DNA of 44,504 nt from Planotetraspora kaengkrachanensis (GTDB lineage Bacteria > Actinomycetota > Actinomycetes > Streptosporangiales > Streptosporangiaceae), in NCBI RefSeq assembly GCF_016862895.1, contig NZ_BONV01000045.1, forward strand, positions 1 through 44,504, in the 5' to 3' direction. This document shows positions 11,731 through 32,693 of this stretch, one piece after another. Both the position numbers and the translations under genes were made by a program. How positions within the stretch are numbered: the stretch's first letter is position 1; the number at the start of each line of letters is the position of its first letter. The notes under the pieces are model-generated. The model was not told where the DNA came from and ran no database searches. It saw only the letters and a list, made by a program, of their open reading frames with translations.

Positions 11731-11951
11731 CGGGTGCGGGAGGAGTAAGGGAGAAGGGCTATCTCGCGGGCGTTCTTGATGGCCCGCGCGAGCTGCCGCT
11801 GTTGCCGGCCGCTCACTCCGGTGACCCGGCGGCTGCGGATCTTCCCGCGGTCGGAGATGAACTTGCGCAGCAGATCGGTGTCCTTGTAGTCGATGTAGTC
11901 GACACCGAGCAGGGGGTTGGACTTCTTCCGCGGCACGCGACGGGGCTTCAT
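11727..11951 (-). CDS. rpsR2: Zinc-independent ribosomal protein S18 paralogue
   Basis: 74-residue S18 of the 30S platform. The core is diagnostic: [21 protein letters not shown] followed by [25 protein letters not shown] and ALLPY. The N-terminal CxxC zinc motif of the housekeeping S18 is missing, so this is the C-minus form that replaces the zinc-binding protein during zinc starvation. The start overlaps the stop of the upstream GTPase gene by ATGA, so both share the Zur-type promoter at 13123-13137. Its 3' end carries a tandem duplication. Confidence 0.93.
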
Positions 11952-13099
11952 GCGATCTCCTCCAGATCCAGTACGGCGGCGAACGGGTCGTCGTAACCGG
12001 CCCAGGCGTCGGGGCCGGCGACGGACTCCTCCGGGGTGAGCAGGCACGAGTCGAGCAGGGCGTGAATACGCTCGCGGTCGAGCTCGGGACCCGTGAAGAC
12101 GAGGTGCTGGACGCGGTCGCCGACGACGGGCGCCCAGTCGAGCGAGGCGGCCGCGCGGCGTGCGGGCGAGACCAGCTCCCATGCGGCTTCGGGCAGCGCC
12201 GCCAGCCACGGGCCCGCGTCCTCCACGGACACCACGCCGGCCACCGCGTCCCAGGCCAGCAACCGCTGCGGCCGCGTGGCCAGCCAGAACCGGCCACGGC
12301 TGCGGACCGATTCGGTGACCAGCTCGTCGACGGCCTCGAACAGGCGGTCCGGGTGGAGCGGCCGAAGGCGGTGCCAGACGACCGTGGTGATCTCGTCGGT
12401 CACCGCGTCGGACGGCAGCTGCACGGTCGCCGGGTCGACGCGCGCCGCCAGCTCCTCGGCGCGCAGGGCGGCCCCCGTCACCTCGGGGAGCGGCCCGTCC
12501 ACCGGCGTGACCGGGGTCAGCGGGGTGAGATGGCCCAGCACGGCGCACGTCAGCTCCACGTCGCCCTCGTCGCCGTCGCCCTTGTGGACCATCAGGCCGG
12601 TGGCGTACTCGATCTGCCGGGCGAGCACCTCGGCCAGGTAGCGCTGGTCACCCTGCGCGGCCTGCCTGCCGACCTCGGAAAGGCGGTCCGCGCGGGCGAT
12701 GTCCACGGGCATGTGCACGGCGTCCAGCGCGGTCAGCACGGCGGTGACCCTGAGGAGGTCGCGCGCCTCCTCGCAGTCGAGGGCCTCGGCGACCGACCGG
12801 GGCTCGACCGAGTCCCACAGGTCCGCGATCAGCAACGGGGCCGCGCCGGCCTGCCGTACGAGCTCGGGGACCAGATCCTCGCGGACCGTGCAGGTGACGC
12901 AGCCGTGGGCGAGCCGGACGTCGGTCCTGTCGCGGATCCGGGAGGCGTCGCGGACGACCCGCTCCACCCGGCCGCGGGTCACGTCGCGCAGGTCGTGGTG
13001 GACGGCGAGCGCGCCGGGATGGGCGCGCAGCAGCCGGTCGACGGCGGCGGTCCTCGCCGCGTCGTGCAGGCCCGCGACGAGGACAACAGGGACGGACAC
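11948..13099 (-). CDS. mrf: COG0523 GTPase, MRF-type ribosome hibernation factor recruiter
   Basis: 383-residue protein of the CobW/COG0523 G3E GTPase family, starting at GTG 13099 with GGAGGGAGACCAC just before it. The N-terminal P-loop region is degenerate ([17 protein letters not shown] lacks the GxGKT signature). The metal-binding CxxC-type motif is [10 protein letters not shown], and a C-terminal CobW-C domain follows (about 240-383). In mycobacteria the equivalent gene in the zinc-repressed ribosomal operon encodes Mrf, which recruits the hibernation factor MPY to ribosomes lacking zinc. Position, length and the coupled rpsR2 make the same role likely here. Loss of the P-loop suggests it may not hydrolyse GTP. 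The frame continues upstream to 13138, but that part would span the operator. Confidence 0.82.
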
Positions 13100-13122
13100 G
13101 TGGTCTCCCTCCAGGAATAAAA

Positions 13123-13137
13123 CGGTTATCATTTTCA
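13123..13137. promoter_or_regulatory. Zur-box-like operator in a divergent promoter
   Basis: Read on the minus strand the site is TGAAAATGATAACCG. The left half matches the actinobacterial Zur consensus half-site (TGAAAATGA) exactly; the right half is degenerate. On the plus strand it overlaps a TATCAT -10 element (13127-13132), 30 bases before rpmG2, and it lies just upstream of the minus-strand GTPase gene. Zinc-bound Zur would thus repress both directions. Confidence 0.75.
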
Positions 13138-13161
13138 TTCTACGACCCGAAAGGAGCTGGA

Positions 13162-17265: not shown

Positions 17266-17319
17266 AGAATAACAAATGGCGATTCGTGCGAACTTTTTCC
17301 ACCCGGCTTCGTTCCGGCC

Positions 17320-17383
17320 GGCGGCTCGTGCGGCGGCTCGTGCGGCGGCTCGTGCGGCGGCTCGTGCGGCGGCTCGTGCGGCG
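17320..17383. repeat. 12-bp tandem repeat, five units
   Basis: GGCGGCTCGTGC is repeated five times exactly (17320-17379) and continues into a partial sixth unit. It sits 20 bases after the HxlR stop codon, in the noncoding space toward the glycosyltransferase gene. No function assigned. Confidence 0.9.
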
Positions 17384-17403
17384 GTTTTCCGGGTGGCCGT
17401 CCG

Positions 17404-18582: not shown

Positions 18583-19611
18583 TCAGCCGAGCCCGGAGTT
18601 TCCCGGCGTGGACGTGGCCCAGGGGGTGACGACGATCCTGCGGATCGCGGTGCCCGCCGCCTGACTCGACCAGGCCGCCGAGACGCGGTCGAGCGGGGCC
18701 ATGTCGAAGGCGACCTTCAGCCCGCCCTCGACGGCGTGCTCCATGACCTGCGAGAAGGCGGCCCGCCGCTGGTCCTTGGTGAGGTCGTTGTTCGTGTATC
18801 CGAGCACCGCGGCCGAGCGGCTGCGCAACGTCGAGGAATCGAGGGTCGCGCTGTCCGCGGCCGATCCGCCGAGATTGACCAGTCGGCCGCCCTGCGCGAG
18901 CACCCGCACCGCCGCCTCGGCGGGCACCCCGAAGAGCGGGTCGATGACGACGTCGACCCCTCCGTCGCAGACGGCCGCCATCCGTCCCGCCAGCGTCGCG
19001 GCGTCGTCGCCGGCTTCGATGGGGACGACCGCGTCCGCGCCGGCGGCCCGGGCCGCCTCCCGCGCCGCGTCGGACCGGCAGGCGGCGACCACGCGCCGCG
19101 CGCCGAGCAGCCGGGCGGCCTGCACGGCCACCTGCCCGACGACGCCGCCCGCCCCGAGGACGAGCACCTGTTCGCCCGGCCGGACCGCGGCCCGCCAGGT
19201 CAGGGCCATCCAGGCCGCGACCGCGGACAGCCCGAGCGCCGCGGCCTGGGTCTCGCCGACGCCGTCGGGGAGCGGCACGAGGTCGTCCTCGGGGACGGAG
19301 CAGTACTGCGCCAGACTTCCGTCACCGGGCCGCATCCCGGCCGAGGTGGGGAACCACACCCGCGTCCCCGCGGGCCCCCATCCGGTGTCCTCCGTGAGAT
19401 GCCCGACGCCCTGCACGCCCGGCACGTACGGCAGCGCGGGAACGCCGAAGTACGAGGAGCCCGAGGCGCACAGGAGGTCGAGCGGCGTGATCGGGGCCGC
19501 CAGCACGCTGACGACGGTCCGGCCCTCCCGCCGCTCAGGTCTGTCCCGCTCACCCCGTCGCGGCGCCTCCCCGCACGCGTGGACGATCGCCGCGCGCATC
19601 ACGTCGCTCAC
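18583..19611 (-). CDS. MDR-family zinc-free alcohol/quinone oxidoreductase
   Basis: 342-residue medium-chain dehydrogenase/reductase. The GroES-like half contains PITPLDLLCASG, PYVPGVQGVG; the Rossmann motif is VLGAGGVVGQVAVQAARLLGA. The structural and catalytic zinc cysteine sets are not seen, which points to the quinone oxidoreductase (QOR) branch using NADPH. The GTG start overlaps the LigA stop as GTGA; an ATG four codons in (19599) is the alternative start. As the last gene of the dioxygenase operon it may reduce an enone or quinone formed in the pathway; that is an inference. Confidence 0.85.
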   Translation of the reverse strand: MSDVMRAAIVHACGEAPRRGERDRPERREGRTVVSVLAAPITPLDLLCASGSSYFGVPALPYVPGVQGVGHLTEDTGWGPAGTRVWFPTSAGMRPGDGSLAQYCSVPEDDLVPLPDGVGETQAAALGLSAVAAWMALTWRAAVRPGEQVLVLGAGGVVGQVAVQAARLLGARRVVAACRSDAAREAARAAGADAVVPIEAGDDAATLAGRMAAVCDGGVDVVIDPLFGVPAEAAVRVLAQGGRLVNLGGSAADSATLDSSTLRSRSAAVLGYTNNDLTKDQRRAAFSQVMEHAVEGGLKVAFDMAPLDRVSAAWSSQAAGTAIRRIVVTPWATSTPGNSGLG

Positions 19612-19970
19612 GTCGCGATGTCCGGGTACGGCAGGCCGAAGTGCTGGAGTCGCCTGCCGTACTCCTTCTGGAAGGCGAGCGGCTCGTCGTAGTCGCGCTC
19701 GAACATCGCGATGAAGAGCGTGAGCGTGAGGAACGGGTGGGCGCCGAGCTCGAACAGCCGCACGTAGTCGTGGGCGGCCAGCGCTTCGCGCTCGGCGTCC
19801 TCGAACTTCAGCCAGGTGCTCGCCTCGCCGGAGTGGCTGCCGAGGATCGCGTTGGCCCGCTCGGCCTCCCACCAGGCGACGGTGCCGCGGGGGTCCTCGC
19901 GGTAACGCTCGACGAGGTCCGGGTCGCGGTCGACGGTGAACAGGAACTTGTCGATCAGGTACTTGCTCAT
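19608..19970 (-). CDS. ligA: Extradiol dioxygenase small subunit, LigA-like
   Basis: 120-residue subunit of a class III (LigAB-type) extradiol ring-cleavage dioxygenase. The family pattern is visible: YLIDKFLFTVDRDPDLVERYREDP, then LTxxExxAL-type residues AEREALAAHDYVRLFELGAHPFL. In the protocatechuate 4,5-dioxygenase the small subunit covers the active-site cleft of the catalytic LigB subunit. It overlaps the LigB gene by ATGA, as expected for subunits made in equal amounts. It is a little shorter than the 139-residue Sphingobium LigA. Confidence 0.88.
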   Translation of the reverse strand: MSKYLIDKFLFTVDRDPDLVERYREDPRGTVAWWEAERANAILGSHSGEASTWLKFEDAEREALAAHDYVRLFELGAHPFLTLTLFIAMFERDYDEPLAFQKEYGRRLQHFGLPYPDIAT

Positions 19971-20830
19971 GCGGTCACCCCGTTGGGATACCAGGTGAAG
20001 TACGCCTCCATGGTGTGGAACAGGTCGAGCGTGTCCACGTAGTCGGCCTTGGCGCCCTCTCCGGCGACGCCCATCATCAGCATGAAGTCCATGAAGCCGT
20101 GGGTGGCGTTGCCCGGCTCCCACAGGCTGTCGAGGGTCACCTCCGACAGGCAGCCCTCGATGTCGCCGGAGGCGATCCACTCGACGGCCTTCCTGTCGAA
20201 CTCCGGGTCGGGTCCGTGCGGGCCGAACTGGCGGGGTCCGCCCAGCTCGAGCGACAGGTGGCCGGTGCCGATGACGGCGACCCGCTTGTCGCTCGGCCAC
20301 GACTCGACGAGCTGCCGGATCGTTCGGCCGAGCTCGACGAAGCGTTTCGGCCGGGGCAGCGGCGGCGCGAAGATGTTGGTGTACACGGGCACGATGGGCA
20401 GGTCGGCCTCGGGACGGAGCGTGATGATCGGGCAGGTCACGCTGTGGTCGATGCGCAACTCGTTGCTGAAGGCGAGGTCGAAGCCGGCGTCCAGGCCATC
20501 ACGCAGGATGTGGGCCGACAGGTCCTCCTGGCCGCGCAGCAGCATGCGCGGCAGGCCGAACTCGCGCTCCTCGTTGTAGAAGTTGGCGTCGTAGAAGGGC
20601 GCCTTCCCGATGAGGAACTGCGGCATGTTGTCCAGCCAGAGCTGGTGGAAGTGGTCGGAGCCGACCATCACCAGCACGTCGGGGTTCGCCCGGGTCAGCG
20701 TCTCGCGGAAGGCCGCGATCTTGGCGACCCACGCGTCGGCGAACGGCGGGCGTTCCTCCGGCGGGGCCGTACTCGCCCGGTAGTAGAAGGGGTGATGCGT
20801 GGACGCGATCACCGCGACCAGTTCTGCCAT
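19967..20830 (-). CDS. ligB: Extradiol dioxygenase catalytic subunit, LigB-like
   Basis: 287-residue catalytic subunit that opens a dihydroxy-aromatic ring next to the diol with Fe(II). Residues matching LigB are present: His12 (ASTHHPF), His60 (GSDHFHQ) and Glu238 (LWEPGN) as iron ligands, and His191 (GTGHLSLELGG) as the catalytic base. Length is close to LigB (302). The substrate may be protocatechuate, gallate, a methylgallate or an N-heteroaromatic diol; sequence alone does not decide. It lies 31 bases after the citryl-CoA-lyase-like gene in the same operon. Confidence 0.9.
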   Translation of the reverse strand: MAELVAVIASTHHPFYYRASTAPPEERPPFADAWVAKIAAFRETLTRANPDVLVMVGSDHFHQLWLDNMPQFLIGKAPFYDANFYNEEREFGLPRMLLRGQEDLSAHILRDGLDAGFDLAFSNELRIDHSVTCPIITLRPEADLPIVPVYTNIFAPPLPRPKRFVELGRTIRQLVESWPSDKRVAVIGTGHLSLELGGPRQFGPHGPDPEFDRKAVEWIASGDIEGCLSEVTLDSLWEPGNATHGFMDFMLMMGVAGEGAKADYVDTLDLFHTMEAYFTWYPNGVTA

Positions 20831-20861
20831 GAGACCTCCCGGGGCGGGTGGGGGTGAGCGG

Positions 20862-21653
20862 TCAGTCTTCGTCCGGCACGTACGTGGCGTTCCGGTCGAC
20901 GGTCATGTAGACGTCCATGCCGATCGGCCGGCGGCGCTCCTCCGCGAGATGCCCGAGGAGCCCCGCGGCCCGTGCGAGCAGGGCGAAGCCGCGCAGCAGG
21001 TCGACCGGCAGGCCCAGGTCGGCCAGGGCGGCCCCGCAGACTCCCGCGCCGTTCAGCGGCAGTGTTCTGCCCAGGACCGTTGGGTGCACCCGGCCGATCG
21101 CCTCGAACAGCCGCAGGTGCGGTCCGCGCAGCCCCTCCTCGTCGGCGACCGCGAGGAGCACCGGCGTGCGCGGGTCCTGCACCTTGTGCACCGGGTGACC
21201 GAGGCCGGGGACCAGCCGCCGGGCCTCGCGCGCCTCGGTGACGGCCGCGAGCGCGAGCGCGTCCCAGCCGTCGCCGTCGGTGGGCAGCGGGCCCTCATGG
21301 GCGGCGAGGACGCCGGCGAGGAAGCGCCCGCTGTCCTCGGTGACGCCGAGGAACCGCGATCCCCCGCCGAGCAGACCGGCGGCGAGCGCCCCCTGCACGG
21401 ACTCCGGCGCGCTGAGGTAGGTCAGCCGGGCGGCGATCGCCGTCGGGGTGAATCCGTGATCGGCGAGTGCGACCAGCACGGTCTCGAATACCCGCGTCTC
21501 CTGTGGCGTGGGCCGGCGCCCGGCCACCAGCCAGAACGCGAGCTCGCCGAAACCGACCTTCCCCATGAGGTCGCCCGCCAGGTCCTGCCCGAGCAGCCGG
21601 ATGGCCGTCGGGTCGGAGGTCCCGATCGAGGTGGGAAACGTCGCGCCGTCCAT
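20862..21653 (-). CDS. Citryl-CoA lyase-like protein (citrate synthase superfamily)
   Basis: 263-residue protein, shorter than citrate synthase (~370-430). The citrate-synthase-like core is seen in VPGLGHPVHKVQDPRTP (His153, His156) and IGMDVYMTVDRNA with an Asp where citrate synthase has its catalytic Asp. The first catalytic His of true citrate synthases (usual GxxHGG) seems replaced by the AAGLLGGGSRFLG segment, as in the citryl-CoA lyase branch. Such enzymes cleave a 3-hydroxy-3-carboxyacyl-CoA into acetyl-CoA and a 2-oxoacid. It sits between a CoA-transferase gene and the dioxygenase, so a CoA-thioester route for the ring-fission product is plausible but unproven. Confidence 0.82.
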   Translation of the reverse strand: MDGATFPTSIGTSDPTAIRLLGQDLAGDLMGKVGFGELAFWLVAGRRPTPQETRVFETVLVALADHGFTPTAIAARLTYLSAPESVQGALAAGLLGGGSRFLGVTEDSGRFLAGVLAAHEGPLPTDGDGWDALALAAVTEAREARRLVPGLGHPVHKVQDPRTPVLLAVADEEGLRGPHLRLFEAIGRVHPTVLGRTLPLNGAGVCGAALADLGLPVDLLRGFALLARAAGLLGHLAEERRRPIGMDVYMTVDRNATYVPDED

Positions 21654-21711
21654 GGATGGTTCCTCGCTGTTCGTCGTCGCTGTCCTGCCCTGCGCGCCCC
21701 CCGTGGGCGCG

Positions 21712-22908
21712 TCAGGTGTCCTGCCGCGCGGGCCGCTCCGGCCGGGTCAGCCACTCGCGTATCTCCGCGCCGTGCTCGTCGAGCGCCGGGGGAGGCAGCC
21801 GGTAGGAGGGCTCGGTCAGGGAGAAGGTGATGGGGTTGCGCACCGAGGGGACGGTCCGGTCGCCGTCGCCGGGTCGCACGACCGGATCCAGGCCCAGTTC
21901 CTCGGCGAAGGCGACGCCCTCGTCGACGGTGTTGATCGGCCCGCAGGGCACACCGGCCGCGGTGAGCGCGTGGAACCACTCCATCTTCGGCCGCCGGCCG
22001 AGCCGTTCCACCAGCAGCGGGCGCAGCGCCTCGCGGTTGGCCGTCCGGTCCCTGGTCCGCGCGAACCGCGGATCGTCGACGAGTTCGGGGACGCCGAGGA
22101 CCTCGCAGAGCTTGCGGAACTGGCCGTCGTTGCCCGCCGCCACGATGAGGTCGCCGTCGGCCGCGGGCAGCGGCTCGTAAGGGAACAGGCTCGGGTGGGA
22201 GTTGCCCATGCGCAGGGGAACGACGCCGGCCGCGACGTACGCGCTGGAATGGTTGACCAGCCCGGACAGCGCGGTGCTCAGCAGGTTGACCTCGACGTGC
22301 TGGCCCTGGCCCGTGGCGGCCCGGTGGTGCAGCGCCGCGAGGATGCCGATGCTCGCGTGCAGGCCGGCCATGACGTCGAAGACGGAGATCCCGGCGCGGT
22401 ACGGCGGTCCGTCCGCGTCGCCGGTGAGGCTCATGAGCCCGGACATGGCCTGCACGATGAGGTCGTAGCCGGGCAGGGAGGCCCCGCCGCCCGAGCCGAA
22501 CCCGCTGATCGACGCGTACACGATCCCCGGGTTGGAGGCGGTCACCGACTCGTAGTCCAGCGCGAACCTGCGCAGACCGCCCGGCTTGAAGTTCTCCACC
22601 ATGATGTCGGCCCGCCGGGCGAGCTCCCTGGCCGCCGCGAGGTCGCCTTCGTCCTTCAGGTCGAGCGCGACCGACCGCTTGTTGCGGTTCACGCCCAGGT
22701 AGTACGTGGACACCTCGTCGTGCACGGGAGGCATCCACGTGCGCGTGTCGTCTCCCGAGGGGCTCTCCACCTTGACGACCTCAGCGCCGAGGTCGGCCAG
22801 GAGCATCGTGGCGTACGGCCCCGCGAGGATGCGGGAGAAGTCGGCCACGAGCAGGCCCGACAACGGCCCGGACGCTGCGGACGGGGTCGCGGCGCTTGAG
22901 GTGGTCAT
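21712..22908 (-). CDS. CaiB/BaiF (family III) CoA-transferase
   Basis: 398-residue CoA-transferase that moves CoA between carboxylic acids. The family signatures are complete: LVADFSRILAGPYATMLLADLGAEVVKVE, TYYLGVNRNKRSVALDLK, and the catalytic Asp in PGYDLIVQAMSGLM. I chose the ATG at 22908; an in-frame ATG at 22941 has no ribosome site. First gene of the minus-strand catabolic operon, with its promoter and candidate IclR operator just upstream. It could load CoA from succinyl- or acetyl-CoA onto the acid cleaved by the next gene's product. Confidence 0.92.
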   Translation of the reverse strand: MTTSSAATPSAASGPLSGLLVADFSRILAGPYATMLLADLGAEVVKVESPSGDDTRTWMPPVHDEVSTYYLGVNRNKRSVALDLKDEGDLAAARELARRADIMVENFKPGGLRRFALDYESVTASNPGIVYASISGFGSGGGASLPGYDLIVQAMSGLMSLTGDADGPPYRAGISVFDVMAGLHASIGILAALHHRAATGQGQHVEVNLLSTALSGLVNHSSAYVAAGVVPLRMGNSHPSLFPYEPLPAADGDLIVAAGNDGQFRKLCEVLGVPELVDDPRFARTRDRTANREALRPLLVERLGRRPKMEWFHALTAAGVPCGPINTVDEGVAFAEELGLDPVVRPGDGDRTVPSVRNPITFSLTEPSYRLPPPALDEHGAEIREWLTRPERPARQDT

Positions 22909-22968
22909 GAAGGAGCGGGTTCCTCTCTGAGGATGGATCATTGGGCCGACCGGCTCATGCGTCCGTTG

Positions 22969-23020
22969 AGCGGACGACTGTCCGCTGTGGCAGTCTGCGC
23001 GTCCCGATCGTTCCTGTCAA
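22969..23020 (-). promoter_or_regulatory. Promoter and operator of the CaiB-ligBA operon
   Basis: On the minus strand TTGACA (23020-23015), 17 bases and CAGACT (22997-22992) form a promoter. The palindrome AGCGGAC-GACT-GTCCGCT (22969-22986) covers the predicted start point. Its core CGGAC-N4-GTCCG recurs upstream of the amidohydrolase gene. Confidence 0.7.
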
Positions 23021-23083
23021 GGTGCGGGACGGCCGGGCCGCGCGCTCTCTCACGGACGGGTGAGGCGTGCACTCGGGGCCGGA

Positions 23084-23884
23084 TCAGGACGCGGTCACCT
23101 GCGGGATCGACTCGTGCAGCGCCCAGTCGGCGCTGATCGCGGCGGCCGTCCTGAGCAGGAGTGGAAGGTGCTCCTCCGTGAGCTTCTCGACCGGCGTCTC
23201 GGCGGCGTGCGCGTTGACGTTGAGCGCCGCGACGACCCGGCCGGTCCCGTCGCGCAGGGGGACGGCCACGGACCGGATGCCGAGCGCGAGCTCCTGGTCG
23301 GTCAGCGCCCACCCCTTGGCCCGCACGTCGCGGAGCTCGGCCTCCCGCTCGTCCGGGCCCGGCTGCCTGCGGGCGCTGATCCCCGACCGGCCGGGCTCGG
23401 CGAGCACCCGGTCGACCTCGGCGGGTGCGAGGCCGGCCAGCAGGACCTTCCCGAGCGAGGTCTGCAGGGCGGGGAAGCGCGTCCCGATGCTCACCGACAG
23501 GGCGACGATCTTCGGCACCGCCACGCGGGCCACGTACACGATGTCCGGGCCGTCCAGCTGCGCGATGGACGACGACTCCCGCGTCCTGGCCACGAGGCTC
23601 TCCATGTGGGGGCGGGCGATCTCCCACAGGCCGGTGGAGTGGACGTAGGAGACCCCGAGTTCCAGCACGCGCGGGGTGAGGGCGAAGCCGCCCTGCTCGC
23701 TCCTGGCGTACCCGAGCTCCTCGAGGGTGAGCAGGATCCGGCGGGCCGTCGGACGGGCCAGCTCGGTGGCGGTCGCCACCTCGGTGAGGGACATCACCGG
23801 CCGCCCCGGCCGAAACGCCCTGATCACATCGAGACCGCGCGCGAGCGCCTCGATGAAGTCGGGTCCGGTGTCCTTGCGCGCCAT
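23084..23884 (-). CDS. IclR family regulator (PcaR/PobR-like)
   Basis: 266-residue IclR protein: N-terminal winged helix (FIEALARGLDVIRAF, SLTEVATATELARPTARRILLTLEELGY) and C-terminal ligand-binding domain (ISxxLPLxxTSLGKVLLA-type stretch: TRFPALQTSLGKVLLAGL; then SVAVPLRDGTGRVVAALNV). PcaR/PcaU/PobR members sense aromatic acids or ring-cleavage products. It lies between its two likely targets, the CaiB-ligBA operon and the amidohydrolase gene. Its own start is preceded on the minus strand by TAGAGT (23925-23920) and CGGACA (23948-23943), the latter overlapping a TCCG-N5-CGGA repeat, which suggests autoregulation. Confidence 0.92.
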   Translation of the reverse strand: MARKDTGPDFIEALARGLDVIRAFRPGRPVMSLTEVATATELARPTARRILLTLEELGYARSEQGGFALTPRVLELGVSYVHSTGLWEIARPHMESLVARTRESSSIAQLDGPDIVYVARVAVPKIVALSVSIGTRFPALQTSLGKVLLAGLAPAEVDRVLAEPGRSGISARRQPGPDEREAELRDVRAKGWALTDQELALGIRSVAVPLRDGTGRVVAALNVNAHAAETPVEKLTEEHLPLLLRTAAAISADWALHESIPQVTAS

Positions 23885-23919
23885 GTCGGTGTCTTTCCTG
23901 TCGGTTCAGTGGCCTTCCG

Positions 23920-23957
23920 ACTCTAACCGTGGTGCGGCGTGATGTCCGCATGTCGGA
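23920..23957 (-). promoter_or_regulatory. Candidate promoter of the IclR gene
   Basis: TAGAGT (23925-23920) with CGGACA (23948-23943) 17 bases upstream. The inverted repeat TCCG-CATGT-CGGA (23945-23957) overlaps the -35. It uses the same CGGA/TCCG half-site letters as the two strong operators but in the opposite order, so it is weaker evidence. Confidence 0.4.
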
Positions 23958-24001
23958 TCGGCCGGCCGGGCCGGGCCGCGATTCCCGGCGTCCCGGCACC
24001 C

Positions 24002-24072
24002 TTGACAGCGACGATGGCTCACCTCATTGTTACATCCACATTGCGTTGACCGCTCTACGGACGTTCGTCCGT
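24002..24072 (+). promoter_or_regulatory. Promoter and operator of the amidohydrolase gene
   Basis: TTGACA (24002-24007), 17 bases and CATTGT (24025-24030) form a promoter. The perfect inverted repeat ACGGACGTTCGTCCGT (24057-24072) lies about 20 bases after the predicted start point and shares the CGGAC-N4-GTCCG core with the site at the CaiB promoter. A protein there could block elongation. Confidence 0.65.
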
Positions 24073-24136
24073 GAATGCCCGCGTGCCGCGATCCCCCGCG
24101 GCGGCGGATGAGGGCCCAGGGAAGAAGTGGGGCACG

Positions 24137-25612
24137 ATGAGCACGACGACCACCCACGACACGAGCAGCGGCGACCTCGGACCTGGACGGCCGGTGGTGT
24201 TCCGCAAGGGCGTCGTCCTGACGATGGACGACCGGCATGACATCCTCCGCGACGCCGACGTGCTGGTGGTGGGTGAGCGCATCGCGGCCGTCGGGCACGG
24301 CCTGGAGGTCCCGGAAGGCACGCTCGAGATCGACGCGAGCGGCGGAGTCGTCATGCCCGGCATGATCGACACGCACCGGCACATGTGGCAGACGGCGATG
24401 CGCGGATACGGCGCCGACTGGACGCTCACCCAGTACTTCGTCTGGTACTACCTCGAGTGGGGGAAGGTCTTCCGCCCACAGGACGTGTACGCGGGCAACC
24501 TGCTCGCCGCGATCGAGGCGCTGGACGCCGGTGTGACCACCACCGTCGACTGGTCACACGGCCTGCAGACCGTCGACCACGCGGACGCCGCCGCGGACGC
24601 CCTCGAGGCGGTGCCGGGACGTTTCGTCCTCGCCTACGGCAACATCCAGCAGGGTCCGTGGGTGTGGTCCACCGCCCCCGAGTTCCGCGACTTCGTCAGC
24701 CGCCGCGTCCACGGGCGCGGGGACATGTTCGGGTTCCAGATGGCCTTCGACGTGACGGGCGACCCCGAGTTCCCCGAGCGGGCCGCGTTCGAGGTCGCCC
24801 GCGACCTCGGCGTCCCCGTCACCACCCACGCCGGTGTCTGGGGCGCGACCAACGACGACGGTATCCGCCTGATGCACGAGAACGGCTTCATGACGCCGGA
24901 GACCGTCTACGTCCACGCCGCGACGCTCAGCCCCGACTCCTACCACCGGATCGCCGCGACGGGCGGCTCGGTCTCGGTGTCCACGGAGAGCGAGCAGAGC
25001 GCGGGCCAGGGTTACCCGCCCACCTGGCGGTTGCGCAAGCACGACATCCCGGTGTCCCTGTCCATGGACACCAGCGTGTGGTGGAGCGGCGACCTGTTCT
25101 CCGCGATGCGCACCACGCTCGGCGCCGACCGCTCGCGAGAGCACATGGAGGCGCACGGCCGGCAGGAGACGGTCACCCACGCGCACCTGCGCGCCGAGCA
25201 CGTGGTCGACTGGGCCACGCGCGGCGGCAGCAGGGCACTCGGCCTGGACGGCGCCGTCGGAAGCATCGAGGCGGGCAAGAAGGCCGACATCGTGCTCATC
25301 AAGAACGACCATTCGCCCGTGATGTTCCCCATGTTCAACCCGTACGGGCACGTCGCCTTCCAGGCGCAGCGCGCGGACGTGCACACCGTCGTGGTCAACG
25401 GCCGGATCGTCAAGCTCGACCACCGGCTGGTCGGGATCGACCTGGCCGCCGCTCGGCGCAGCGTCGAGAGCACCGTCGAGCATCTCGTCGGCGCGCTCGG
25501 CGAGGAGGCGTGGGCCAAGGGAATGAATCCCGACGTCCCCGAGACGAAGGTCTTCGACAACCCCTACACCTACACCGACTGGGACGCCCGCGGCGCCCAG
25601 TGGAAGGCGTGA
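24137..25612 (+). CDS. Amidohydrolase (TRZ/ATZ/cytosine-deaminase-like)
   Basis: 491-residue metal-dependent hydrolase of the amidohydrolase superfamily. Metal ligands are visible: His80 and His82 (DTHRH), His231 (TTHAG), His260 (YVHAATL) and Asp311 (SMDTSVWW). Such proteins usually carry one Fe or Zn ion and hydrolyse C-N or C-Cl bonds on heterocycles, or deaminate purine/pyrimidine-like rings. The C-terminal part has the usual GSIEAGKKADIVL motif. I chose the ATG at 24137; the longer frame to 24071 would run over the operator. It is divergent from the IclR gene and shares an operator with the dioxygenase operon, so it probably makes, or salvages, a precursor of the ring-cleavage substrate. 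Confidence 0.88.
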   Translation: MSTTTTHDTSSGDLGPGRPVVFRKGVVLTMDDRHDILRDADVLVVGERIAAVGHGLEVPEGTLEIDASGGVVMPGMIDTHRHMWQTAMRGYGADWTLTQYFVWYYLEWGKVFRPQDVYAGNLLAAIEALDAGVTTTVDWSHGLQTVDHADAAADALEAVPGRFVLAYGNIQQGPWVWSTAPEFRDFVSRRVHGRGDMFGFQMAFDVTGDPEFPERAAFEVARDLGVPVTTHAGVWGATNDDGIRLMHENGFMTPETVYVHAATLSPDSYHRIAATGGSVSVSTESEQSAGQGYPPTWRLRKHDIPVSLSMDTSVWWSGDLFSAMRTTLGADRSREHMEAHGRQETVTHAHLRAEHVVDWATRGGSRALGLDGAVGSIEAGKKADIVLIKNDHSPVMFPMFNPYGHVAFQAQRADVHTVVVNGRIVKLDHRLVGIDLAAARRSVESTVEHLVGALGEEAWAKGMNPDVPETKVFDNPYTYTDWDARGAQWKA

Positions 25613-27633: not shown

Positions 27634-28395
27634 ATGTACGCCGAGGAACGGCAACAGGAGATCCTCCGTGAGGCCCGCGCCGCCGGACGTGTGGACGTGG
27701 TGACCCTGGCGGAGCAGTTCGGCGTCACGACGGAGACGATCCGCAGGGATCTGACCGTCCTCGAACGCGCGGGCGTTCTGCGGCGGGTGCACGGCGGCGC
27801 CATCCCCGTCGAACGGCTCGGCTTCGAGCCGGCCGTCGCGACGCGCGACGAGGTCATGACCGCGGAGAAGGAGCGCATCGCCAAGGCCGCCCTCGCCGAG
27901 CTTCCCCAGGACGGCGCCATCGTCATCGACGCCGGCACCACGACCGGCCGTCTCGTCCAGGAGCTTCCCGCCGACCGCGAGCTCACCGTCATCGTCAATT
28001 CGCCGCCACTGGCGACCGTGCTGGCGACCCGGCCCAACGTGACGGTGTTCCTCCTGGGCGGCCGGGTCCGCGGCAGGACGCTGGCGACCGTCGAGGACTG
28101 GGCGCTGCAGCAGTTGTCACAGCTTCACGTCGACGTGGCCTTCATGGCGACCAACGGCTGTTCGGTCGCCCGGGGGCTGACGACCCCCGACCCGTCCGAG
28201 GCGGCGATCAAGCGGGCGATGGTCGCCTCGGCGCAACGTTCCGTGCTCCTGGCCGACCACACGAAGTTCTCCAGCAACTACCTGGCCCGCTTCGCGACGT
28301 TGTCGGAGATCGACGTGATCGTCAGCGACGCCGGCCTCGATCTCGAGCTGGCGTCGGACCTCGCCGCGGCCGGGCCGGAGGTCGTCCGCGCATGA
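27634..28395 (+). CDS. DeoR/GlpR family repressor
   Basis: 253-residue DeoR-type regulator: N-terminal helix-turn-helix (YAEERQQEILREARAAGRV, FGVTTETIRRDLTVLE) and a DeoRC effector domain (VIDAGTTTGRLVQELP, GGRVRGRTLATV, ADHTKFSS). DeoRC domains bind phosphorylated sugars, so the likely inducer is a fructose or mannitol phosphate. It leads the PTS operon and overlaps the kinase by ATGA, and probably represses its own promoter through the CGAAAC repeats. It is the counterpart of FruR in fructose operons of other actinobacteria. Confidence 0.9.
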   Translation: MYAEERQQEILREARAAGRVDVVTLAEQFGVTTETIRRDLTVLERAGVLRRVHGGAIPVERLGFEPAVATRDEVMTAEKERIAKAALAELPQDGAIVIDAGTTTGRLVQELPADRELTVIVNSPPLATVLATRPNVTVFLLGGRVRGRTLATVEDWALQQLSQLHVDVAFMATNGCSVARGLTTPDPSEAAIKRAMVASAQRSVLLADHTKFSSNYLARFATLSEIDVIVSDAGLDLELASDLAAAGPEVVRA

Positions 28396-29333
28396 TCCTC
28401 ACCTTGACGCTGAACCCGAGCCTGGACCGCACGATAGAGGTCGGCTCGCTGACCAGGGGAGCGGTCATCAGGGCGGCCGCAGCACACCTCGATCCCGGCG
28501 GCAAGGGAGTCAACGTCTCACGCGCGCTGCTGGCCAACCAGGTGCGCTCATGCGCGGTCATACCGTTCGGAGGCGACGAGGGGCGGCAGCTCGTCGGGCT
28601 GCTGTCGGCCGAGGGCATCGACATGATCCCCGTCTCCGTCGGCGGATCGACCAGGTCCAACGTCACGCTCGCCGAGCCCGACGGAACGGTCACCAAGCTC
28701 AACGAGCCGGGCACGGCGCTCACCCCGTCCGAGCTCGACACGCTGGCGAGCGCGGTGCTCGGCGCGGCCGAGTCGGCCGACTGGGTCGTCGCCTCGGGCA
28801 GCCTGCCGCCCGGAGTGCCCGTCGACGTCTACGCGGGACTGTGCCGCAGATTCGCCGCCGCCGGCATCCAGACGGCCATCGACACGAGCGGGCCCGCCCT
28901 GGTGGCGGCGGTCGCCGCGGGTCCCACGCTCGTGAAGCCCAACCGCGAGGAGCTCGCGGAGGCGACCGGCACGCCGATCACCCGTCTCGGCGACGTCATC
29001 GACGCCGCGGAGAAGCTGCGCGGGATGGGCGCGCGCTCCGTGCTCACCAGCCTCGGCGCGGACGGCGCGCTCCTCATGGAGGACGACCGGTTCTGGTACG
29101 GCCGGTGCCCCGTCGAGGAGCCGCGCAGCAGCGTGGGGGCGGGCGACGCCATGCTCGCCGGCTTCCTCGCCGCGGGCGCGTCCGGCGAGGCGGCGCTGGC
29201 CGAGGGGCTCGCCTGGGCGAGCGCCGCCGTGGGTTTGCCGGGGAGCCGGATGCCCGCCCCGGCCGACATCGATCGTTCAGCAGTCCGGATCAGCACTCCT
29301 GATCCGGCCCAGCCGCTTGTGTCCGGGGGATGA
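28392..29333 (+). CDS. fruK: PfkB-family 1-phosphofructokinase-type sugar kinase
   Basis: 313-residue PfkB kinase of the FruK/LacC branch. The N-terminal TLTLNPSLDRTIEV, GGKGVNVSRAL, the NEPGTALT segment, GSLPPG and the C-terminal anion-hole motif SVGAGDAMLAGF are all present, with the catalytic Asp in the last motif. FruK phosphorylates fructose-1-phosphate to fructose-1,6-bisphosphate; LacC acts on tagatose-6-phosphate. Which one acts here depends on the product of the dehydrogenase encoded four genes on. It is unusual to find this kinase in a mannitol-specific operon (see Findings). Confidence 0.85.
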   Translation: MILTLTLNPSLDRTIEVGSLTRGAVIRAAAAHLDPGGKGVNVSRALLANQVRSCAVIPFGGDEGRQLVGLLSAEGIDMIPVSVGGSTRSNVTLAEPDGTVTKLNEPGTALTPSELDTLASAVLGAAESADWVVASGSLPPGVPVDVYAGLCRRFAAAGIQTAIDTSGPALVAAVAAGPTLVKPNREELAEATGTPITRLGDVIDAAEKLRGMGARSVLTSLGADGALLMEDDRFWYGRCPVEEPRSSVGAGDAMLAGFLAAGASGEAALAEGLAWASAAVGLPGSRMPAPADIDRSAVRISTPDPAQPLVSGG

Positions 29334-29364
29334 GAAGCGGCGCGTAACCACCGGCACCACCCCA

Positions 29365-29383
29365 GCCGGCCTGCCAGGCCGGC
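29365..29383 (+). other. Intercistronic hairpin before the EIIC gene
   Basis: GCCGGCCT (29365-29372) and AGGCCGGC (29376-29383) pair over a 3-base loop, 8 bases upstream of the AAGGAG ribosome site. No T-run follows, so it more likely stabilises the mRNA or tunes EIIC translation than terminates. Confidence 0.45.
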
Positions 29384-29406
29384 CTCCCCGGAAGGAGCAC
29401 ATTCAG

Positions 29407-30576
29407 TTGGCCACTCCCTATACACCGACGGTCCAGGGGACCGGCATGCGGGCGACCATCCAGCGGTTCGGCGGGCACCTCGCCGGCATGATCATGCCCA
29501 ACATCGGGGCGTTCATCGCCTGGGGCCTGATCACGGCGCTGTTCATCCCGACGGGCTGGGTGCCCAACGCGACCCTGGCCGAACTGGTCGGCCCCATCAT
29601 CACCGTCCTGCTTCCCGTGCTGATCGGATACACCGGTGGCCGCATGGTGCACGGACAGCGCGGCGCCGTCGTCGGCGCCGTCGCGACCATGGGCGTCGTG
29701 GTCGGCGCGGACGTCCCGATGTTCCTCGGCGCCATGATCATGGGTCCGCTGGGGGCGTTCGTGATCAAGCAGGTCGACAGGATGTTCGCGGACCGCATCA
29801 AGGCGGGCTTCGAAATGCTCGTCGACAACTTCAGCGCGGGCATCGTCGGCGGCGTCATGGCCATCCTCGGAGTCCTGGCCATCGGCCCGGTCGTCAGAAC
29901 GATCACCGAGGCCGCAGGCGACGTCGTGGAGTGGCTGGTCCACCACGACCTGCTGCCGCTGGCGTCGGTCCTGATCGAGCCGGCCAAGGTGCTGTTCCTC
30001 AACAACGCGATCAACCACGGCGTCCTCACCCCGCTCGGCGTGGCGGAGTCGGCCGGCGTCGGCAAGTCGATCCTGTTCATGCTGGAGTCGAACCCCGGCC
30101 CCGGCCTGGGCCTTCTCCTCGCGTATATGCTGTTCGGACCCCGGGCGCTGCGGGCCAGCACCCCGGCGGCGATAGTCATCCAGTTCTTCGGCGGAATTCA
30201 CGAGATCTACTTCCCGTACGTTCTCATGAAGCCCCGTCTCATCCTCGCCACGATCGCCGGCGGCGCCGCGGGCATCCTCACCTTCCTGGTCACGGGTGCC
30301 GGGCTCATCGCCTCGCCGTCACCGGGCAGCATCTTCGCCTACTTCGCGGTGACTCCGAAGGGCGGCTACTTCGGGGTGATCGCCGGAATCGTCGTGGCCG
30401 CCGCGGTCTCGTTCGCGGTCGCGTCGGCACTGCTGGGCTTCGGACGGAAGAACGGCGACGAGCAGGCGGAGACCGAGCCCGGCGCCCTGCCCGAGGACGA
30501 GACCGGTACCGGAACAGGCACCCAGACCGACGGCGCGGCCGGCAGTGAGTCCGTGCCCGCCACGAAGGAGTCGTGA
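29407..30576 (+). CDS. mtlA: Mannitol PTS permease component EIIC
   Basis: 389-residue membrane component of the mannitol phosphotransferase system. It matches the N-terminal half of E. coli MtlA almost motif for motif: MPNIGAFIAWGLITALFIPTGW, LIGYTGGRMVHG, VVGADVPMFLG, IKAGFEMLVDNFSAGI, EPAKVLFLNNAINHG, NPGPGLGLLLAYM, GGIHEIYFPYVLM and SPGSIFAYFA. It has about 8 transmembrane segments. The GIHEIYF loop is the known substrate site. TTG at 29407 is preferred because AAGGAG lies 9 bases upstream; an in-frame ATG at 29446 would cut the N-terminus. The EIIB and EIIA domains, fused in E. coli, are separate genes here. The tail (~360-389) is acidic and repetitive. Confidence 0.93.
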   Translation: MATPYTPTVQGTGMRATIQRFGGHLAGMIMPNIGAFIAWGLITALFIPTGWVPNATLAELVGPIITVLLPVLIGYTGGRMVHGQRGAVVGAVATMGVVVGADVPMFLGAMIMGPLGAFVIKQVDRMFADRIKAGFEMLVDNFSAGIVGGVMAILGVLAIGPVVRTITEAAGDVVEWLVHHDLLPLASVLIEPAKVLFLNNAINHGVLTPLGVAESAGVGKSILFMLESNPGPGLGLLLAYMLFGPRALRASTPAAIVIQFFGGIHEIYFPYVLMKPRLILATIAGGAAGILTFLVTGAGLIASPSPGSIFAYFAVTPKGGYFGVIAGIVVAAAVSFAVASALLGFGRKNGDEQAETEPGALPEDETGTGTGTQTDGAAGSESVPATKES

Positions 30577-30581
30577 CCACC

Positions 30582-30890
30582 ATGTCCAGCATCGAGAGCA
30601 AGGACGTCCACAAGATCGTCGTGGCCTGCGACGCGGGCATGGGCAGCAGCGTCATGCTCGCCAGCCAGCTCCGCAAGCAGCTGAAGAGCGCGCAGGTCCA
30701 GGTGGAGCACACCCCGGTCAACTCGATCCCGGCCGACGCCGACGTCGTGGTCTGCCACGTCGGGCTGGCCGACCGGGCCCGGGCCACCGCTCCCGACGTG
30801 GTGCTCATCCCCTTCCAGGTCTTCATCGGAGACCCGGCGGTCGCCAAGCTGGTCGCCACCATCAAGAGCGGCGGCACGATCAATGCCTGA
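30582..30890 (+). CDS. Mannitol PTS component EIIB
   Basis: 102-residue cytoplasmic EIIB of the mannitol/lactose-type fold. The phosphocysteine is Cys16 in IVVACDAGMGSS, the same motif as in the EIIB domain of E. coli MtlA. It takes phosphate from EIIA and passes it to mannitol as EIIC imports it. ATG 30582 has AAGGAG 11 bases upstream; GTG at 30573 would have only a 2-base gap, so I prefer the ATG. Its stop lies inside the EIIA gene, in an 8-base overlap. Confidence 0.92.
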   Translation: MSSIESKDVHKIVVACDAGMGSSVMLASQLRKQLKSAQVQVEHTPVNSIPADADVVVCHVGLADRARATAPDVVLIPFQVFIGDPAVAKLVATIKSGGTINA

Positions 30891-31341
30891 GACGGCCCCG
30901 CTGCCGCTCGACCCCCGCGCCGTCCGCCTCGACGAGCAGGCGGACGGCCGCGACGGAGCGATCCGCCGCTGCGGCGAGGTCCTCGTCGAGGTGGGCGCCG
31001 TGGAGCCCGACTACATCGACGCCATGCTCGAACGTGAGCGCTCGATCTCCACGTACGTCGGCGAGGGCGTCGCCATCCCGCACGGCACCCTGGTGGCCAA
31101 GGACTCCGTCCACCACGACGCGATCTGCGTGCTGCGCTTTCCCGGCGGCGTCGACTGGGACGGCGAGCAGGTCTCCGTCTGCGTCGGCATCGCCGCGCGC
31201 GGCGACGGCCACATCAGGCTGCTGTCGGAACTCGCCCAGATCCTGCTCGATCCCGAGCAGGCACAGGCTCTGCGGGAGGCGACCGATGTCTCCGACGTCA
31301 TCCGCCTGCTGCAACCCTCCAGAGAGGAACCATCCGAGTGA
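30883..31341 (+). CDS. mtlF: Mannitol PTS component EIIA
   Basis: 152-residue EIIA of the mannitol/fructose family. The phospho-His is His67 in EGVAIPHGT, and the MLERERSISTYVGEGVAIPHG segment matches the EIIA domain of MtlA. It takes phosphate from HPr and gives it to EIIB. Overlap with EIIB by ATGCCTGA, and with the dehydrogenase by GTGA, shows tight coupling. Confidence 0.93.
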   Translation: MPETAPLPLDPRAVRLDEQADGRDGAIRRCGEVLVEVGAVEPDYIDAMLERERSISTYVGEGVAIPHGTLVAKDSVHHDAICVLRFPGGVDWDGEQVSVCVGIAARGDGHIRLLSELAQILLDPEQAQALREATDVSDVIRLLQPSREEPSE

Positions 31342-32378
31342 AGGTCGCCCGTTTCCACGCTCCCGGCGACATCCGCATCGAGGACGTGCCGGAGCCCGTC
31401 GCGGGTCCCGGGGACGTGAAGATCCGTGTCCGCAACTGCTCGACCTGCGGCACCGATGTCAAGATCTTCAAGTTCGGCCACCACCACATCAGGCCGCCGA
31501 GGGTCATGGGCCACGAGATCGCCGGCGAGGTCGTCGACGCCGGCGAGGGCGTGACCGGCTGGGCGCCGGGCGACCGCGTCCAGGTGATCGCCGCGATCCC
31601 CTGCGGACAGTGCGAGGAGTGCCGCCGGGGCCACATGACGGTCTGCCCGAACCAGGAGTCGATGGGCTACCACTACGACGGCGGCTTCGCGCAGTACATG
31701 ATCGTCCCGGCGAAGGTCCTCGCCGTCGACGGGCTCAACCGCATCCCCGACGGCCTCGGGTTCGCCGAGGCGTCGGTCGCCGAGCCGCTCGCCTGCGTAC
31801 TCAACGGCCAGGAGCTGGCCCGGGTCGGCGAGGGCGACGACGTGGTCGTCATGGGGTCGGGACCCATCGGCTGCCTGCACGTACGGCTGGCCCGCTCGCG
31901 CGGCGCCTCGCGCGTGTTCCTGGTCGACCTCAACGCGGACCGGCTGGCCATGGCGGCCGATCTGGTCAGGCCCGACGCGGCGATCTGCGCCGCCGACACC
32001 GACGTCGTCGACGAGGTGCTCAAGCTCACCGGCGGAAGGGGGGCGGACGTCGTCATCACGGCCGCCGCGTCCGGGGCCGCCCAGGAGCAGGCGCTGCAGA
32101 TGACGGCCAGGCAGGGACGCATCAGCTTCTTCGGCGGGCTGCCCAAGGACGATCCGATCATCCGGCTCGACTCCAACCTGGTGCACTACCGCGAGTTCAC
32201 GATCGTCGGGGCCAACGGCTCGAGCCCGGCCCACAACAAGCGCGCGCTCCAGCTCATCGCCGACGGATCGGTGCCCGTGGCCGATCTGATCACCCACCGG
32301 CTCCCGCTGGGCGAGGTCCTCGACGCCATCGACATCGTGAGCCGCGGCGCCGCGATCAAGGTCACCATCGAACCCTGA
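31338..32378 (+). CDS. Zinc-dependent MDR polyol(-phosphate) dehydrogenase
   Basis: 346-residue medium-chain dehydrogenase. Catalytic zinc ligands appear as CSTCGTD and GHEIAG; the structural zinc loop has four cysteines (CGQCEECRRGHMTVC). The NAD motif is VMGSGPIGCLHVRLARSRGA. Length and layout match sorbitol and galactitol-1-phosphate dehydrogenases. In the operon it would oxidise the mannitol-1-phosphate made by the PTS to a ketose phosphate, replacing the unrelated MtlD. The GTG start overlaps the EIIA stop. Its last codons are duplicated downstream (32366-32391). Confidence 0.88.
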   Translation: MKVARFHAPGDIRIEDVPEPVAGPGDVKIRVRNCSTCGTDVKIFKFGHHHIRPPRVMGHEIAGEVVDAGEGVTGWAPGDRVQVIAAIPCGQCEECRRGHMTVCPNQESMGYHYDGGFAQYMIVPAKVLAVDGLNRIPDGLGFAEASVAEPLACVLNGQELARVGEGDDVVVMGSGPIGCLHVRLARSRGASRVFLVDLNADRLAMAADLVRPDAAICAADTDVVDEVLKLTGGRGADVVITAAASGAAQEQALQMTARQGRISFFGGLPKDDPIIRLDSNLVHYREFTIVGANGSSPAHNKRALQLIADGSVPVADLITHRLPLGEVLDAIDIVSRGAAIKVTIEP

Positions 32379-32391
32379 CATCGAACCCTGA
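32366..32391 (+). repeat. 13-bp tandem duplication at the dehydrogenase stop
   Basis: CATCGAACCCTGA occurs twice back to back (32366-32378 and 32379-32391). The first copy carries the last codons and the TGA of the dehydrogenase gene, so this is a recent slippage or duplication that is silent for the protein and lengthens the leader of ptsH. Confidence 0.95.
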
Positions 32392-32408
32392 GAAGAAGGA
32401 GGAGCCAG

Positions 32409-32693
32409 ATGCCGGAAAGGACAGTGACCGTCGCCTCGCGGTCCGGCCTGCACGCGCGCCCCGCCAAGATCTTCGTCCAGGCCGTGGCCAGGCAGGGCAC
32501 CGCCGTCCGCATCCGCGTCGGCGACGGCAAGCCGGTCCCCGCCAACAGCATGCTGGCCGTGCTGTCGCTCGGTGCCGGGCACGGCGCCGAGGTCACGCTC
32601 GACGCCGACGGTCCGGGCGCGGAAGAGGTTCTGGACGCGCTCGCCGACCTGCTGTCCCGTGACCTCGACGCCGAGGAGGCCTCCGATGCCTGA
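32409..32693 (+). CDS. ptsH: HPr phosphocarrier protein
   Basis: 94-residue HPr. The phospho-His is His15 in SGLHARPA and the regulatory serine site is Ser47 (ANSMLAVLSLG, equivalent to Ser46). AAGGAGGAG precedes the ATG. HPr shuttles phosphate from EI to EIIA. No HPr kinase is known to be general in actinobacteria, so regulatory phosphorylation of the Ser is uncertain. Co-operonic with EI, so the operon can run without an outside PTS. Confidence 0.95.
   Translation: MPERTVTVASRSGLHARPAKIFVQAVARQGTAVRIRVGDGKPVPANSMLAVLSLGAGHGAEVTLDADGPGAEEVLDALADLLSRDLDAEEASDA

Follow-up and report, generated by a model that had tools for sequence, protein, structure and literature searches.

A conserved actinobacterial gene unit that may link opening of a trihydroxylated ring to a CoA-dependent lower route

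We analyzed a 44,504-nucleotide stretch of DNA from Planotetraspora kaengkrachanensis (NZ_BONV01000045.1; hereafter the window) that carries a ring-opening dioxygenase of the LigBA type, a family III coenzyme A (CoA) transferase, a citrate-synthase-fold protein annotated as a citryl-CoA lyase (here called the lyase) and a metal-dependent amidohydrolase. These genes stay together across distant lineages, and in some of them an intradiol dioxygenase of the hydroxyquinol type stands in the place of LigBA. We propose that they form a self-contained catabolic unit that would open a trihydroxylated ring, in our preferred version one of the hydroxyquinol type, and pass the product into a CoA-dependent lower route. 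This route would be used in place of the ligC-ligI-ligJ-ligK route or the maleylacetate reductase route. The substrate, the reactions and the order of steps are inferred, and we give the proposal a probability of roughly 0.45, slightly below even. The unit has the following parts.

18583–19602, minus strand: quinone-oxidoreductase-type medium-chain dehydrogenase/reductase (PF00107, PF13602 and PF08240; start GTG 19602 or ATG 19599)
19608–19970, minus strand: LigA-like small subunit (PF07746, 16.5 bits, under the cut-off of 25.3)
19967–20830, minus strand: LigB, class III dioxygenase fold (PF02900, 90.9 bits)
20862–21653, minus strand: citrate-synthase-fold "citryl-CoA lyase"-like protein (NCBIfam NF004868, 293.7 bits, cut-off 193)
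21712–22941, minus strand: family III CoA-transferase, CaiB/SUGCT-like (PF02515, 392 bits; start ATG 22941 or 22908)
23084–23884, minus strand: IclR regulator, PcaR/PcaU/PobR-like (TIGR02431, 267.6 bits, under the cut-off of 284.75)
23885–24136: divergent intergenic region between the IclR and amidohydrolase genes, probably a promoter/operator region
24071–25612, plus strand: metal-dependent amidohydrolase, PRK08204 subfamily (PF01979; NF006056, 377.8 bits, under the cut-off of 391; start GTG 24071 or ATG 24137)

The minus-strand genes between 18583 and 22941 run in the order CoA-transferase, lyase, LigB, LigA and quinone-oxidoreductase-type gene, with the IclR gene upstream. They are spaced as in an operon: 58 and 31 nucleotides separate the first three genes, LigA overlaps the LigB stop by 4 nucleotides, and 5 or 8 nucleotides (depending on the start codon) precede the quinone-oxidoreductase-type gene. 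An earlier, sequence-only reading had placed the dioxygenase, the CaiB-type CoA-transferase and the citryl-CoA-lyase-like gene in one operon, and all three are found where it put them, on the minus strand. Its statement that no lactone hydrolase or hydratase was visible overlooked the plus-strand amidohydrolase, which lies inside the region that it covered. The medium-chain dehydrogenase-like gene and the IclR gene also lie there and were absent from its discussion. Because the PF07746 score falls under the cut-off, LigA is identified by its position and conservation. For the quinone-oxidoreductase-type gene, the top NCBIfam model is quinone_pig3 (95 bits, under its cut-off).

The grouping is not due to chance, and conservation of the gene set is strong. 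LigB orthologs (77–100% identity, full length) occur in 80 of the 249 genomes of the order. A survey of 396 genomes of the phylum recovered a LigB ortholog (79–88%) in eight genomes besides the window's own, seven of them outside the class. A collection of contigs held 401 stretches that encode a LigB relative. The best 80 of these 401 are 86–99% identical and come from Planotetraspora, Nonomuraea, Streptomyces, Micromonospora, Pseudonocardia, Geodermatophilus, Nocardioides and other genera. We scored gene content (matches above 100 bits) in 89 loci fetched through LigB, one of which (L091) is a distant relative. LigB was present in 89, LigA in 88, the CoA-transferase in 88, the lyase in 87, the IclR gene in 85, the amidohydrolase in 84 and the quinone-oxidoreductase-type gene in 70. 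The CoA-transferase and the lyase had no match (E 1e-4) in 12 control loci whose LigB is not orthologous (27–42%). The association of the CoA-transferase and lyase with the ring-opener spans Actinomycetota and alphaproteobacterial plasmids. Plasmids of Aminobacter MSH1, Sinorhizobium, Martelella and a Rhizobium encode LigB at 66–67% and LigA at 48–52% identity. The CoA-transferase and lyase adjoin LigB and LigA on these plasmids, but their similarity is just 32–42%.

In all, 129 cluster loci of up to 25 kb each were compared. LigB is present in 121 and the intradiol enzyme in 8; two pairs are identical in sequence, which leaves 119 distinct LigB loci. No transporter or oxygenase is frequent among the flanking genes. 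Two distant relatives, L032 (2536–10678) and L091 (6409–10491), encode a CoA-transferase, a LigB at 35–39% and an Amidohydro_2 hydrolase (shown with Pfam for L091) and have no lyase. L032 also has LigA, and a NitT/TauT-like transporter, read by eye, lies near these clusters.

The two ring-openers are interchangeable. No locus carries both. In the eight intradiol loci (L226–L230, L241, L244 and L181), the intradiol gene sits at the place of LigBA beside the CoA-transferase and lyase. A lyase-led search of 394 genomes of the class returned 45 places in 44 genomes. Among 30 lyase-led loci, LigB lay within 1.5 kb in 15, an intradiol dioxygenase took its place in 5 (66–73% identical to the enzyme of a Rhodococcus opacus plasmid cluster), and neither was that close in 10. 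LigA tracks LigB: all 119 distinct LigB loci have it, and none of the 8 intradiol loci does. The quinone-oxidoreductase-type gene is present in 84 of 119 LigB loci versus 0 of 8 intradiol loci (Fisher p 9.5e-5, from undeduplicated counts in which related loci are not independent). A tree of the CoA-transferase and lyase from 64 loci, built by a quick search and with two long end branches flagged, has at least five changes of ring-opener label, four of them forced by well-supported branches. In the sister plasmid clusters L174 (LigB) and L181 (intradiol), the ring-opener is the sole difference among the compared genes. Two neighboring architectures, with or without a flavin adenine dinucleotide (FAD) monooxygenase and a gene like that for 2,6-dihydroxypseudooxynicotine hydrolase, each occur with either ring-opener: L174 and L245 have LigB, L181 and L244 have the intradiol enzyme, and all four encode an MhpA-like FAD monooxygenase. 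The hydrolase of these four loci is nearest to 2,6-dihydroxypseudooxynicotine hydrolase (1.7e-31 for L174), which hints at acylated hydroxy-aromatic substrates.

The closest match of the intradiol enzyme is PnpC (1.6e-74), followed by hydroxyquinol 1,2-dioxygenase 1tmx (1.6e-70), with catechol 1,2-dioxygenase reaching just 2e-30; by sequence comparison, it belongs to the hydroxyquinol 1,2-dioxygenase clade. We conclude that LigBA and the intradiol enzyme probably make one ring-opened acid and feed one lower route. A single lower route shared by both ring-openers would, in turn, point to a trihydroxylated ring as the substrate.

The sequence-only reading had favored protocatechuate, with 4,5-cleavage, CoA loading of 4-carboxy-4-hydroxy-2-oxoadipate (CHA) and cleavage to acetyl-CoA. 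A LigAB fold, a CoA-transferase and a lyase-like gene do share an operon, and the regulator is PcaR/PobR-like. However, another contig of the same genome (G000:C14) encodes 4-hydroxybenzoate 3-monooxygenase (pobA; 548.5 bits, cut-off 538.7), the protocatechuate 3,4-dioxygenase beta subunit (pcaH; 351.4 bits, cut-off 296.4) and 3-oxoadipate enol-lactonase (pcaD; 265.9 bits, cut-off 255.9), together with a pcaG-like alpha-subunit piece (115 bits, below the cut-off of 126). PcaH also scores over its cut-off in 33 of the 40 genomes that carry the cluster, or at least LigB or the intradiol form. Protocatechuate is an unlikely substrate because pobA, pcaHG and pcaD lie elsewhere in the genome and PcaH is present in so many cluster-bearing genomes. 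In addition, replacing a 4,5-cleaving enzyme with an intradiol enzyme would change the product, no LigC-like dehydrogenase is found in the 129 loci beyond one remote match, and the active-site columns of LigB are altered. We therefore rejected protocatechuate as the leading substrate and now give the protocatechuate route very little chance. CoA loading followed by C–C cleavage is retained as a candidate mechanism; its protocatechuate version is not.

The lower route itself appears to be tied to ring cleavage, as had been suggested. The CoA-transferase, lyase and ring-opener stay together, and queries from the lig cluster of Sphingobium xenophagum pSH2 (L189) found LigK, both amidohydrolases (LigI/LigJ) and the tautomerase in 0 of 129 loci (tblastn, E 1e-8). 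The LigC query gave one remote Gfo/Idh match (22%, L176). The related expectation that the genes occur in genomes without ligK holds in part: no LigK scores over the cut-off in 34 of the 40 cluster-bearing genomes, but 6 do have one, and 7 more score 280–302 bits against a cut-off of 304.5. In the window's own genome, the LigK search gave just an RraA-like match (40.5 bits). The same genome has 10 matches to PF04909, which we take to be the family expected for LigI and LigJ; none lies within the window, and remote LigI/LigJ enzymes may remain elsewhere. Maleylacetate reductase is encoded in one of the 129 loci (L042).

We compared the LigB orthologs to known class III dioxygenases. The AlphaFold model of LigB (predicted local distance difference test score, pLDDT, 85.8) matches the gallate dioxygenase DesB and LigAB (Foldseek 3wra, E 1.4e-20; 1bou, 1.7e-20; template modeling score 0.82) and so has the class III fold. 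When aligned with four canonical LigB proteins (L189, L190, L060 and L062), which carry the GGxSH and Glu motifs, the ortholog group has GHLSL and HGF at these positions. We take the metal site of LigAB to be His12, His61 and Glu242, with His195 as the second active-site histidine. The column of His195 holds Leu194 in 121 of 121 loci, and His191, three residues earlier, is present in all of them. The column of Glu242 holds Gly245 in 121 of 121, next to an equally constant His244. The invariant histidines of LigB are His12, His60, His129, His191 and His244. Both histidines of the 2-His-1-Glu metal site are kept, whereas its glutamate is not, and the second active-site histidine is missing.

The likeness of the LigB model to gallate dioxygenase, its nearest match, raises the possibility of a gallate or pyrogallol substrate. 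The ring would be a vicinal triol, the amidohydrolase would serve as a lactonase or hydratase, and a CHA-like acid would receive CoA and then be cleaved into acetyl-CoA and a 2-oxoacid, much as in the later steps of the sequence-only reading. Such a route would not require the LigC semialdehyde dehydrogenase, which fits the lone remote match, and aconitase-family genes lie near some clusters (L174, L181 and L226). It would also accommodate the exchange of ring-openers: we reason that, on a vicinal triol, a LigAB-type and an intradiol enzyme would yield one and the same compound by cutting between two C–OH carbons (for gallate, 4-oxalomesaconate). On the other hand, the intradiol enzyme that replaces LigBA falls in the hydroxyquinol clade, whereas a carboxylated ring would call for one of the protocatechuate 3,4-dioxygenase type, and LigB lacks the residues of the His195 and Glu242 columns. 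We regard a gallate-type route as possible, if somewhat unlikely.

The altered LigB site also admits a bolder variant. A class III fold without the second histidine and the glutamate ligand might make an intradiol-type product, and a maleylacetate-type acid would then be CoA-charged and split by a lyase with a new catalytic histidine to acetyl-CoA and a C4 acid. This would explain why a true intradiol enzyme has replaced LigB at least four times. A type I extradiol enzyme has reportedly been converted to intradiol cleavage by an H200F substitution. We consider the bolder variant unlikely. The corollary that the ring-opener and the lyase would both perform reactions new to their folds is, in our view, equally unlikely.

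The CoA-transferase has a full-length curated family III domain and matches PDB 4ed9 (E 3.3e-95); its nearest NCBIfam model, succinate-glutarate CoA-transferase, is under the cut-off. The lyase passes the NF004868 subfamily model within the citrate synthase superfamily. We take the Asp of the NVDG motif to be catalytic, and we likewise presume the roles of the other lyase and LigB motifs. Its column lacks Asp in 126 of 126 lyases (Ala in 122, Ser in 4; Ala203 in the window), so the activity implied by the name "citryl-CoA lyase" is not supported. In eleven family members drawn from different settings, this column holds Ala, Ser or Thr. The AlphaFold model of the lyase (mean pLDDT 67.9) was set aside, and no conclusion rests on it.

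The loss of the Asp could mean that the protein is not a C–C lyase at all and acts, for example, as a thioesterase, a CoA-ester isomerase or a regulator. Yet His66, His153, Asp160 and Arg162 are kept in 126 of 126 sequences, and a new histidine, His156, three residues past the catalytic His153, is equally invariant. The kept residues and His156 suggest that the active site is maintained, and we judge a non-lyase role to be distinctly improbable. In several other settings the lyase has a neighbor of a CoA-ester-forming type, and the protein likely works in CoA-ester chemistry. In Cupriavidus necator pBB2, it lies beside a CoA-transferase, the large and small subunits of an aconitase-family enzyme (a LeuCD pair) and a tricarboxylate-transporter protein. 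In Caballeronia NK8, an adenosine monophosphate (AMP)-binding protein, a thioesterase and an enoyl-CoA hydratase are near, and in Pseudosulfitobacter the lyase adjoins a CoA-transferase fragment and an acyl-CoA dehydrogenase. No CoA-transferase is annotated beside the lyase in Rhodococcus DMU1. Orthologous lyases (68–78%) at L233, L234 and L236 have no CoA-transferase and adjoin an AMP-binding CoA ligase; they may be part of a second pathway.

The amidohydrolase belongs to the conserved unit. Of the 119 distinct LigB loci, 112 have it, as do all 8 intradiol loci, and both gene order and orientation vary among the loci. The enzyme retains the metal ligands His102, His104, His253, His282 and Asp333. 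The HxxE Glu of deaminases and chlorohydrolases is found in 0 of 121, while Glu308 is invariant (121 of 121 readable sequences, of 122). A role as an AtzA- or 8-oxoguanine-type deaminase is disfavored by the missing HxxE Glu. The same observation bears on the idea that the ring is an N-heterocycle with hydroxyl groups, for instance a trihydroxypyridine, from which the amidohydrolase would remove or hydrolyze a nitrogen group. N-heterocycle deaminases and chlorohydrolases are otherwise common in this enzyme family, and the four clusters with the FAD monooxygenase and the 2,6-dihydroxypseudooxynicotine hydrolase-like protein would fit such a substrate. CoA charging would have no obvious use there, however, and with the deaminase Glu absent throughout, we hold an N-heterocycle to be very unlikely.

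MetE-like genes occur near some clusters. One type, 70–72% identical to the Aminobacter MSH1 copy, lies about 0.9–2.3 kb from the core in five actinobacterial loci and in MSH1 itself (L051, L128, L129, L150, L173 and L175), and a second type lies near 7 other loci. Given these neighbors, an O-methylated substrate is possible.

Our proposed route would begin with ring opening by the divergent LigBA or, in other lineages, by the hydroxyquinol-dioxygenase-type intradiol enzyme. This step would yield a C6 (di)carboxylic keto or hydroxy acid, which the family III CoA-transferase would charge with CoA. The citrate-synthase-fold enzyme would then cleave the alpha–beta carbon bond of the CoA ester to give acetyl-CoA and a C4-type acid. 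In the preferred version, a hydroxyquinol-like ring would give a maleylacetate-type acid, whose CoA ester (a beta-keto acyl-CoA) would be split to acetyl-CoA and a maleate- or fumarate-type acid. A maleate-hydratase-like LeuCD might take on the C4 acid; a LeuD-type gene is present in both Rhodococcus clusters and an aconitase-family gene near L226, and such genes are rare elsewhere. The amidohydrolase may act on the substrate or, further along the route, on an ester, a lactone or a ring-opened intermediate. The quinone-oxidoreductase-type enzyme, found only with LigBA, may keep the substrate reduced.

Several observations weigh against this proposal. The scheme assigns no clear role to the amidohydrolase, and monooxygenases are linked in just 4 of 129 loci. 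The rhizobial plasmid loci L178 and L187 encode LigB and LigA with no CoA-transferase or lyase nearby, which weakens an absolute link between LigBA and these enzymes. Conversely, 10 of the 30 lyase-led loci have neither ring-opener within 1.5 kb. Of these 10, two have LigB a few kilobases away, and five that were viewed in larger regions have a lyase and no CoA-transferase. An AMP-binding CoA ligase adjoins the lyase in three of the five. The ratio of LigB to intradiol loci is biased because most loci were fetched through LigB. The window's genome encodes a maleylacetate reductase homolog (47%) and another hydroxyquinol-dioxygenase-like gene elsewhere, so plain hydroxyquinol may already have a route. 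Finally, residues on which their relatives depend are missing from both LigB and the lyase, so other chemistry is conceivable for either enzyme.

The unit resembles known systems in part. As in the lig cluster of Sphingobium xenophagum, LigA and LigB are adjacent, have the class III fold and lie close to an amidohydrolase-superfamily hydrolase. That cluster has a Gfo/Idh enzyme, two amidohydrolases, a tautomerase and LigK, whose homologs are missing here (apart from the remote Gfo/Idh match); the unit instead has a CoA-transferase and a citrate-synthase-fold lyase, and its LigB differs in the active-site columns. The hydroxyquinol pathway of Paraburkholderia (L246) uses a ring-opener of the same dioxygenase clade as 8 of the 129 loci, whereas the window carries LigBA; maleylacetate reductase is missing from 128 of the 129 loci, which have the CoA-transferase and lyase instead. 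The lyase is homologous by profile to the Hydrogenobacter citryl-CoA lyase (PDB 6hxp) and the C-terminal module of ATP-citrate lyase (E 4.5e-29) and keeps the GxGH His and the DPR motif. Unlike 6hxp, it has Ala or Ser in place of the NVDG Asp (Thr in some other settings) and the new invariant His156. The CoA-transferase shares family and full-length homology with family III enzymes such as glutarate/hydroxymethylglutarate (HMG) SUGCT and those acting on mesaconate and oxalate, but it scores below every curated NCBIfam cut-off compared. The titles and opening parts of abstracts of the open-licence papers searched contain no description of the gene cluster.

The window has other features outside the conserved unit. 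A Dyp-type peroxidase with both Pfam domains lies at 37432–38607 on the minus strand; such peroxidases are often linked to lignin and dye oxidation. A perfect 12-bp tandem repeat of 5.5 copies (17319–17384) extends into the reading frame of an HxlR regulator on the other strand. The plus-strand genes at 27634–34350 form a sugar/polyol phosphotransferase system (PTS) cluster with a DeoR-type regulator (assigned by eye), a PfkB kinase, a PTS enzyme IIC (EIIC), a zinc-type dehydrogenase and a phosphoenolpyruvate (PEP)-utilising enzyme resembling enzyme I (EI). A GTPase at 11948–13138 (minus strand) is near models for the ribosome hibernation factor-recruiting proteins MRF and ZigA (215.5 and 159.3 bits, both under cut-off).

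If our proposal is correct, widespread soil actinobacteria, together with some rhizobia and their relatives, would degrade a hydroxylated ring outside the standard lig, beta-ketoadipate and hydroxyquinol schemes and would make acetyl-CoA directly from the ring-opened acid. The repeated exchange of unrelated ring-openers allows a direct test, since both enzymes should yield one product. The name "citryl-CoA lyase" would need to be corrected for a large annotated subfamily, and the unit would offer a natural example of what determines whether a ring is cleaved in the extradiol or the intradiol mode.

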